Source of the DNA: Alcanivoracaceae bacterium
GTDB taxonomy: Bacteria > Pseudomonadota > Gammaproteobacteria > Pseudomonadales > Alcanivoracaceae
Assembly (NCBI GenBank): GCA_029212745.1
Contig: JARGOL010000011.1
Span: 1-64,000 of the forward strand
Direction of reading: 5' to 3'
Length of the DNA: 64,000 nucleotides
Shown here: positions 3,176-4,882 of the stretch, one piece after another
How the letters are laid out: each line of letters opens with the position of its first letter
How positions within the stretch are numbered: the stretch's first letter is position 1
Notes under the pieces: generated by a model
The model's input: the letters and a program-made list of their open reading frames with translations, nothing else
The model's database searches: none
Told to the model about the DNA's origin: nothing
Position numbers and translations under genes: made by a program

Positions 3176-3205
3176 GCTGCAGCCTCCGATTTCTGTCGTC
3201 TACGC

Positions 3206-3260
3206 GTCTAACGTCGCGAGCAGGGGCGCCGAAGGCGTCCGCTGCCTTGCCTTGTTAGCG
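3206..3260 (-). other. attC: attC site of the attI-proximal cassette
   Basis: On the minus strand it starts CGCTAAC and ends GTTAGAC, the perfect complement of a GTCTAAC core, with the main-family arms between. It closes the first cassette, whose sequence runs from the attI junction near 3563 down to this site. Confidence 0.9.
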
Positions 3261-3325
3261 GGTGCGCCGTGACTGCGCTGCAGAGAGCCCAGCATGGGCG
3301 CTGCGCCAGCGGCGCCCCGCGATAA

Positions 3326-3553
3326 CTAATGGCACACGGAACAGGACTGATGCCTGGCCGTGGCCGCCTGCCTTGATTGTGGCATGCCCAAAAGAATGCT
3401 CAAGCCTGAATGCCAGGCCTCACTGCCAACTAATGGCTTCAAGGGAGAAACTGCCGGATATGCGAACTGGCTCCTGCCCTGGATGCCGGACTGCCCTGCC
3501 GCGGGCAGTGAAATCAAATTGCTATCAAGCGCCGTTTTAGAAGAAAGAGCCAA
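3326..3553 (-). CDS. Possible 75-residue ORF of the first cassette
   Basis: The roughly 300-base cassette between attI and the attC at 3206-3260 has no convincing protein. Its best minus-strand frame starts with TTG at 3553 and runs 75 codons. Two points favour it: the TTG lies five bases after the stop of the attI leader ORF (3559-3615), and the same frame stays open in the copy of this cassette at 1-118. Against it: no recognised domain, a rare start codon, and mostly amino-acid-changing differences between the two copies. The cassette may instead be non-coding. Confidence 0.3.
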   Translation of the reverse strand: MALSSKTALDSNLISLPAAGQSGIQGRSQFAYPAVSPLKPLVGSEAWHSGLSILLGMPQSRQAATARHQSCSVCH

Positions 3554-3556
3554 GCG

Positions 3557-3620
3557 CCCTAACAGTTAATTAGGTCGACCGGGTCGACCTTTTTCTTGTC
3601 GGTTTTGTTGTTCATGGCGC
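3557..3620 (-). other. attI: attI recombination site
   Basis: The cassette array begins at a core sequence GTTAGGG (minus strand, 3557-3563), and no cassette-type attC lies between it and the integrase gene, so the attI site must be here. Two copies of the 8-bp palindrome GGTCGACC (3573-3580 and 3582-3589), one base apart, lie just outside the core and could be accessory integrase contacts, as direct repeats are in attI1. The exact right boundary is a guess. Confidence 0.65.
3559..3615 (-). CDS. attI-embedded 18-codon leader ORF
   Basis: On the minus strand an ATG at 3615 begins an 18-codon ORF encoding MNNKTDKKKVDPVDLINC. AGGAAG stands eight bases upstream, a good ribosome binding site. Its stop codon, TAG, spans the attI/cassette crossover: the codon TGT ends at the core and the TAG comes from the cassette side (GTTAG). 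Cassette genes here mostly lack ribosome binding sites, so the ORF could load ribosomes that then reach the first cassette, as the short ORF-11 in attI1 of class 1 integrons is known to do. Expression is inferred. Confidence 0.5.
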   Translation of the reverse strand: MNNKTDKKKVDPVDLINC

Positions 3621-3883
3621 TAGCTTCCTACAGCGGAATATGTATTTCAATTCAGTCGTTTGGGTTTGTCTGGGGTTTTGTGCGTCGGAGAAAAGCCGGC
3701 ACGGGCGGTTTAATCCTGGCTCTGGCGGCGTGATATCTAATTGATATCGCCCGTGTCTTCTGCCTTTTAATCAGTAACTTACCAGTTTGCGATGTGAGTT
3801 CTGACGTCGATAGTAGGTCTTGGCCGGTTTGCAGGATGGTCGGTGGCAATCAGCGTGTTTATTCACGTTGGCAGGAGACATCG
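3616..3883. promoter_or_regulatory. Integron control region between attI and intI
   Basis: Non-coding stretch that must hold the divergent promoters for the cassettes (Pc, leftward) and intI (rightward). I could not assign convincing -35/-10 pairs for either. There is a repeat of GATATC at 3732-3737 and 3743-3748 separated by TAATT. No LexA-type operator was found by eye, although many integrase genes have one. AT-richer than the flanking genes. Confidence 0.45.
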
Positions 3884-4882
3884 ATGACAAATCGCGCGGA
3901 TGATATTCCCAGGGCGCTGCCAGAGCGGCCCACTCGGCTCATGGACCAGTTTCGGGCCTGGATGCGGTCTCGCCACTACAGCTATCGTACCGAGCAATCC
4001 TATGTTCACTGGGTGGTAGCATTTATCCGGTTTCACAAGCGCCGCCACCCCCGCGAAATGGGAGCTCATCATATAGAGGCCTTTCTCAATCACCTGTCTG
4101 TGAACCGGCGGTGCAGTATTGGCACGCAAAAGATAGCGCTCAACGCGATCAACTGCCTGTATCGGAAATTTCTCCAGATCGACTATGGCCAGCTCAGCTA
4201 TAGAGGATCGCGCCGACAGCCGCGCGTGCCGGTAGTTTTCAGTGAAGCGGAGGTGCTGGCCATCATTGAGCGTTTGGCTGACCCCTTCAAGCTGATGGCA
4301 GAGCTGATGTACGGAGCGGGGCTGCGGGTGTCCGAGGTGCTTCGTTTGCGCATCAAGGATCTTGATTTTGACCAGGGCCAGCTTATTGTGCGCGAGGGCA
4401 AGGGTCGCCGTGATCGCATTACCATGTTGCCACGGTCGCTGCAGGAGCGGTTGGGGGCACAGGTGCTGTTGGCGCGGTGGTATTACCAGCGCGATCAGCA
4501 AAGCGGGGTTGGGCCGGCATGGATGCCATACGGGCTGGCGCGCAAGTACCCGGGTCAGGCCTCACAGCTGGGCTGGCAGTTTATTTTTCCGTCGAAAGAG
4601 CCCGCCACCGATCCGCAAACAGGCATTGTCCGTCGGCATCACCACCATCCCGATACCATCCGTAAGTATGTAAAGAGGGCCGCTGTGGATGCCGGCATTA
4701 CCAAGCTCTGCGGTCCGCACACCTTCCGGCACTCGTTTGCCACACGCCTGCTGGAGGCTGGCTACGACATCCGCACGGTCCAGGAGCTGCTTGGTCATTC
4801 CGATGTGTCTACCACCCAGCGTTACCTGCATGTGCTAAATCGTGGCGGTGTTGGTGTGATCAGCCCGGTGGACAGGCGCTAG
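3884..4882 (+). CDS. intI: Integron integrase IntI
   Basis: A 332-residue tyrosine recombinase that inserts and excises cassettes by attI x attC recombination. It has an N-terminal SAM-like domain (residues about 15-100) and a catalytic domain with Arg148 (GAGLRVSE), Lys173, His279 and Arg282 (HTFRH), His305 (LLGHSD) and Tyr314. The extra segment specific to integron integrases is present around residues 205-270 (KYPGQ, TDPQTGIVRRHH). The ATG at 3884 is preceded by GGAG; the open frame extends 30 codons upstream from a GTG but without family similarity. It is transcribed away from the cassettes, the standard integron arrangement. Intact and probably active. Confidence 0.96.
   Translation: MTNRADDIPRALPERPTRLMDQFRAWMRSRHYSYRTEQSYVHWVVAFIRFHKRRHPREMGAHHIEAFLNHLSVNRRCSIGTQKIALNAINCLYRKFLQIDYGQLSYRGSRRQPRVPVVFSEAEVLAIIERLADPFKLMAELMYGAGLRVSEVLRLRIKDLDFDQGQLIVREGKGRRDRITMLPRSLQERLGAQVLLARWYYQRDQQSGVGPAWMPYGLARKYPGQASQLGWQFIFPSKEPATDPQTGIVRRHHHHPDTIRKYVKRAAVDAGITKLCGPHTFRHSFATRLLEAGYDIRTVQELLGHSDVSTTQRYLHVLNRGGVGVISPVDRR

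Follow-up and report, generated by a model that had tools for sequence, protein, structure and literature searches.

Short open reading frames (ORFs) that carry ribosomes towards the recombination junctions of integrons are already known in the form of ORF-11, ORF-18 and the attC ORFs. ORF-11 lies in the attI1 site of class 1 integrons (Hanau-Bercot et al. 2002, as reviewed in PMC8876359) and takes its stop codon from positions 3-5 of the cassette core GTTRRRY (PMC8876359). The same review reports that it was found experimentally to enhance TIR-deficient cassettes. In the case of ORF-18, the OXA-1 cassette has no stop in its core, and a TAA situated 21 bp into the 5' UTR is used instead (PMC8876359). 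Finally, section 3.2 of the review describes short ORFs within attC sites that relieve a stem-loop block by termination-reinitiation. Many cassette genes in long arrays have no ribosome binding site, which raises the question of their translation. In the open-access literature that we searched, we found no statement on a translation phase standard to cassettes in general, nor on a bias of attC lengths modulo 3.

The window analyzed here, a stretch of 64,000 nucleotides from an Alcanivoracaceae bacterium, is one end of a contig (C8) and carries a minus-strand cassette array that extends from position 3562 to the contig end (Table 1). The intI match to the profile reached 398.5 bits for a cutoff of 265, and the mechanical ORF of this gene starts further upstream, at 3794. 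As in sedentary chromosomal integrons, the integrase is divergent from an attI-attC array, with attC arrays on C8 and on a second contig (C10), which carries on an attC array. The nearest full-length integrases among the sequences compared are 66-70% identical and come from relatives of the same family, one of them Alcanivorax nanhaiticus. A third contig (C20) has a further array, with no intI match in its vicinity. Its locus L148 (C20:70000-80000), an attC group with no integrase match close by, holds a relative of cassette 6 of the window, and the two have the 5' end GTTATGTGTGAATTGCGATG in common.

Table 1. Coordinates of the integron features in the window.
Feature	Positions	Strand	Basis or remark
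Cassettes 2-9, the ninth cut by the contig end	1..3210	minus	attC search
First cassette with its attC (about 3257-3205)	3205..3562	minus	no credible cassette-sense ORF
Core GTTAGGG, attI x cassette 1; recombination point between G3563 and T3562	3557..3563	minus	sequence; same core in further copies
attI leader ORF, 18 codons plus cassette-donated TAG (3561-3559)	3559..3615	minus	sequence reading
Palindrome AGGTCGAC-CGG-GTCGACCT beside the TAATTAAC core, within the leader	3572..3590	.	sequence
Shine-Dalgarno-like AGGAAG, 5' of ATG 3615	3624..3629	minus	sequence and duplex energy
Integron integrase coding region as searched (TIGR02249), divergent from the array	3884..4879	plus	profile search

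Upstream of the first cassette, the minus strand from 3632 to 3559 reads tgtAGGAAGctagcgccATG AAC AAC AAA ACC GAC AAG AAA AAG GTC GAC CCG GTC GAC CTA ATT AAC TG/T TAG, where the slash marks the recombination point. This is a leader ORF that starts at ATG 3615-3613 and encodes the peptide MNNKTDKKKVDPVDLINC in 18 sense codons, crossing the junction as the original prediction had described. As recombination occurs after G3563, the final T and the entire stop codon of the leader are cassette bases, which agrees with the idea that the cassette donates the stop. Other parts of the prediction hold equally well: a GTTAA core would give TAA, a GTTATG core would give TAT in the leader frame, and the TTG at 3553 begins five bases past the leader TAG. 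The GTTAGGG core also begins two other copies of cassette 1. The ribosome binding site had been called good; a Shine-Dalgarno (SD) sequence is indeed present, but its strength is moderate, with a duplex energy of -4.2 kcal/mol against the anti-SD. A leader of the ORF-11 type is transcribed from a promoter upstream of it, Pc. A scan of positions 3450-3950 found no sigma70-consensus promoter. The palindrome within the leader probably corresponds to IntI-binding half-sites, because its position and symmetry recur with different sequences in other attI sites (L116, L121, L127, L134, and L059). Direct copies of one of its arms adjoin it, and this juxtaposition of direct and inverted motif copies made us drop the view of a novel RNA element for that of paired IntI-binding sites. 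On the plus strand, a T run comes after the palindrome, and the whole resembles a terminator pointing towards intI.

To compare junctions, we defined P1 as the phase of the leader, where the codon N-G/T precedes T-R-R, P0 as the phase where GTT is a codon, and P2 as NNG/TTA. In the attI1 site of a plasmid-borne class 1 integron, ORF-11 encodes MLRSRAVALKQS and obtains its stop from aadA1. The two ORFs end in the same phase, the leader of the window with CTA ATT AAC TG/T TAG and ORF-11 with CTA AAA CAA AG/T TAA. The likeness to ORF-11 that was originally proposed is thus borne out for the phase and for the origin of the stop.

Conservation of the leader in related attI sites, which had been put forward as a check, was not observed. 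It is absent from the attI of the closest relatives (L086-L095), whose integrases are 66-70% identical: a TGA in the core closes P1 in L086-L090, and there is no P1 leader in L091-L095. Where the attI core of a relative is recognizable, P1 is either closed or has no SD-led start. We therefore ruled out a leader peptide conserved in relatives. The same genome has a second attI-like site, GTCGAATTATGGATAGGTCGAACGGTTCGGCCTACTACACTGTTA, near position 236844 of contig C12 (L149, C12:234500-239500), where P1 is closed by a TAG ten codons upstream, so that there is no leader either. Behind this site come a copy of cassette 1 of the window, 96% identical, and then further cassettes; no intI was matched up to about 2.6 kb away. 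The locus is a predicted integrase-less integron. Hence, the case for the ORF of the window as a conserved leader is weak.

The first cassette was expected to provide the target of reinitiation, in the form of an ORF starting with TTG. We rejected this ORF as a gene, since two stops interrupt its frame in the C12 copy (96% identical) and Pfam gave no match. For these reasons, cassette 1 presently offers no credible gene for reinitiation. An antisense ORF of 92 amino acids was also discarded, its copies differing mostly by amino-acid-changing substitutions. Cassette 1 is the first one after both attI-like sites, and another copy occupies positions 1-125 of the window, at the opposite end of the array. 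It is possibly a gene-less cassette with another role, e.g., as a promoter.

The absence of the leader in the relatives and in the second attI-like site, together with a first cassette without a credible gene, would be expected if the ORF were a by-product of attI. The TAATTAAC core closes two phases and spares P1, and the ATG and the modest SD could then be fortuitous. We kept the 12-nt attI core fixed and shuffled the dinucleotides of the 120 nt upstream, requiring an SD duplex of -4 kcal/mol or better. An ATG ORF led by an SD entered the junction, in any phase, in just 1.2% of the shuffles (0.5% for ORFs of at least 17 codons), which argues against chance at this site. Across the order, SD-led ATG ORFs enter the junction in 10 of 69 attI where 6.4 are expected (SD threshold of -3.5), a number in line with chance, and most of these attI have no SD-led leader, whatever the phase. 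Leaders with a strong SD, on the other hand, are more frequent than chance would have them (5 seen versus 1.1 expected). For its own sequence, the leader of the window is therefore out of the ordinary (at about the 1% level); across integrons, chance would suffice. When the SD-led ORFs of attI are separated by phase, P1 accounts for 10 clusters versus 5 and 2 for the others, and includes leaders of unrelated sequence (L112, L114, and the group of L194/L207/L212/L215). The attI of L132 and L135 have a very strong SD (AAGGGGG) followed by an 11-codon ORF in P0, which would be read in frame across GTT rather than end there. Chance is also at odds with the fact that the phase of the leader is the one under selection at cassette 5' ends (see below), and we regard it as a doubtful explanation that still deserves a place among the candidates.

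We then asked whether cassettes in general are marked by the phase of the leader. The sample of junctions comprised the arrays of relatives across the order and the class, plus loci from more distant taxa. The attC sites were called by a home-made paired-arm rule that gave 3 false hits in 110 kb of ordinary chromosome. We split the cassettes by the presence of a P1 stop in the core (TAG, TAA, or TGA at index 2) and counted the extra P1 stops between index 8 and start+2. If nothing reads P1, such downstream stops should be equally common in the two groups. Yet, they were found in 94 of the 126 cassettes without a core stop (75%) and in 39 of the 153 with one (25%, p=1.7e-16). The contrast persists when keeping one cassette per 5' cluster (74/98, or 76%, versus 31/127, or 24%; p=1.3e-14) or one per array (p=1.2e-8), is replicated in independently fetched arrays (50/66 versus 20/68), and is seen for the core classes ATG, ATA, AC, and GG. 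The other phases show no difference by core class (37 versus 31% for P0, 26 versus 24% for P2), and neither do 945 control GTT[AG] sites that are not part of attC and precede genes in the same DNA (26 versus 25%). Overall, a stop at or before the start codon occurs in P1 in 201 of 225 cassettes, compared with 81 in P0 and 72 in P2. As far as sequence statistics can tell, this shows that selection acts on exactly the phase of the leader at cassette 5' ends. A signal that is restricted to one phase and has a three-base rhythm points to translation rather than to DNA recognition. A bias in the frame of the start codon had been our main signal, as it was strong in the first set of arrays, but it was not significant alone in the new ones; we thus replaced it by the test of P1 stops, which replicates.

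The other end of the cassettes is also biased. The length of attC, from the AAC of the left core to GTT, falls in the classes 1, 2, and 0 modulo 3 in the proportions 67:31:20 (118 clusters, p=2e-7), and as a consequence the TAA of the left core seldom blocks P1. In L324 and L345, where attC lengths range from 58 to 130 nt, nearly all are 1 modulo 3. The attCs of these two loci, in spite of very different lengths, have a common open frame in P1 with recurring peptides (e.g., NNYSHQTHTATLGFVHSLRSLLHKTKLHCAGRCCRR), which annotation pipelines may call as proteins. One might have expected that the constraints of recombination alone account for these patterns: the GTTAG and GTTAA cores and the lengths of attC would be dictated by hairpin geometry or by what IntI recognizes, with the phase signal as a side effect. 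The TAR of the core does belong to the GTTRRRY consensus, and folding does constrain the arms of attC. This explanation is nevertheless disfavoured, and in our opinion very improbable, given the downstream stops that compensate for stopless cores, in a single phase and with a three-base rhythm, and given the uniform length class of the attCs of L324 and L345.

The interior of attC is not specifically open in P1 (61 of 118 clusters, versus 58 of 118 for P0), and we dropped this measure as a P1 signal. We also searched for bridging ORFs, whose ATG lies close to where the preceding gene ends and which continue without a stop up to the junction. They enter P1 after 44 of the 94 genes in the P2 frame (47%) and after 21% of the genes in the P0 frame, whereas bridging into other phases amounts to 3-10%. 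Ordinary gene ends give 22-27%, and the baseline is 22-23% when they are kept open for 65 nt. Relative to it, bridging into P1 is doubled for the P2-frame genes, the other phases are depleted, and the P0-frame genes are merely at the baseline. The enrichment is overstated when judged against the other phases alone, and we abandoned that comparison.

The array of this genome follows the same pattern. Among its 25 cassettes with a clear ORF, translation in P1 would terminate between -35 and +14 nt of the start codon in 24, compared with 15 and 10 for the other phases. Termination at or before the start (+2) concerns 19 cassettes in P1, 10 in P0, and 8 in P2. In none of the 26 attCs listed for the genome (C8, C10, and C20) is P1 interrupted between the left core and the junction, and the TAA of the left core is never in P1. 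The SD is weaker than -3 kcal/mol, and thus not discernible, in 11 of the 25 cassettes, somewhat less than half, which supports the original suggestion of cassette genes without ribosome binding sites for that part of the array.

Cassettes thus seem to be built to a common translation standard. Junctions would share the phase P1, fed by leaders in attI or by ORFs borne by attC, and this could serve either termination-reinitiation or insulation. In the first case, two kinds of ORFs would bring ribosomes into P1: attI leaders, such as the ORF of the window or ORF-11, and ORFs that cross attC after starting close to where the preceding cassette gene ends. The P1 stop would come from the incoming cassette, no later than the start codon of its gene: the TAG or TAA of the core, a stop in the 5' UTR, or a TGA that overlaps the ATG. 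Having terminated next to the start codon, the ribosome could reinitiate there, which would help cassettes with a poor SD. Since almost all cassettes open with a P1 stop and usually end with an attC that spares P1, the arrangement survives shuffling. Arrays in any order could then work as a termination-reinitiation relay. The phase would be maintained by the evolution of cores, 5' UTRs, and attC lengths modulo 3, and ORF-11 and the leader of the window would be the attI entries; we find the arguments for and against this relay evenly balanced. That ribosomes use the P1 signatures, and that coupling is the benefit, is what we infer from the sequences.

Insulation would dispense with reinitiation, the P1 stops at cassette fronts simply keeping stray translation from attI or attC off the start codon. 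It fits the statistics of P1 stops equally well, and the stops are mostly before the start, in many cassettes far upstream of it or accompanied by a good SD of the cassette itself. However, the SDs are weaker in cassettes where a P1 stop is near (p=0.003, versus p=0.81 in the same test for P0), a correlation that is partly confounded with 5' UTR length. With this confounder in mind, the weaker SDs favour coupling over mere insulation, as does the enhancement of TIR-deficient cassettes by ORF-11 that the review reports from experiments (PMC8876359). We therefore consider insulation rather unlikely. A phase standard, if common to the cassettes of many species, would account for the translation of genes in whatever order shuffling leaves them. 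If true, it would also place cassette cores and attC length under translational as well as recombinational selection.

How does the ORF of the window relate to the known systems? Like ORF-11, it is a short ORF of attI, on the cassette-sense strand and with its own SD, which spans the recombination point and ends in CTA NNN NNN NGT followed by a TAG or TAA of the cassette, at core positions 3-5. It differs from ORF-11 in having 18 codons, an unrelated sequence, a moderate SD, and a chromosomal integron as host. It also differs in that it is not conserved in the attI of its integron class, i.e., in the relatives, and is followed by a first cassette without a credible gene. Whether it is an ORF-11-like leader, one case of junctions built on P1 with a stop beside the start and where reinitiation is possible, is in our view an even call. 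At the level of cassettes, the closest parallel is ORF-18: when the core has no stop, the P1 frame ends within the 5' UTR of the cassette, as it does here in 76% of such cassettes, although ORF-18 is known for one cassette group and not as a general property of cassettes. Similarly, the ORFs that would run through attC resemble the known attC ORFs in passing ribosomes to the next cassette.
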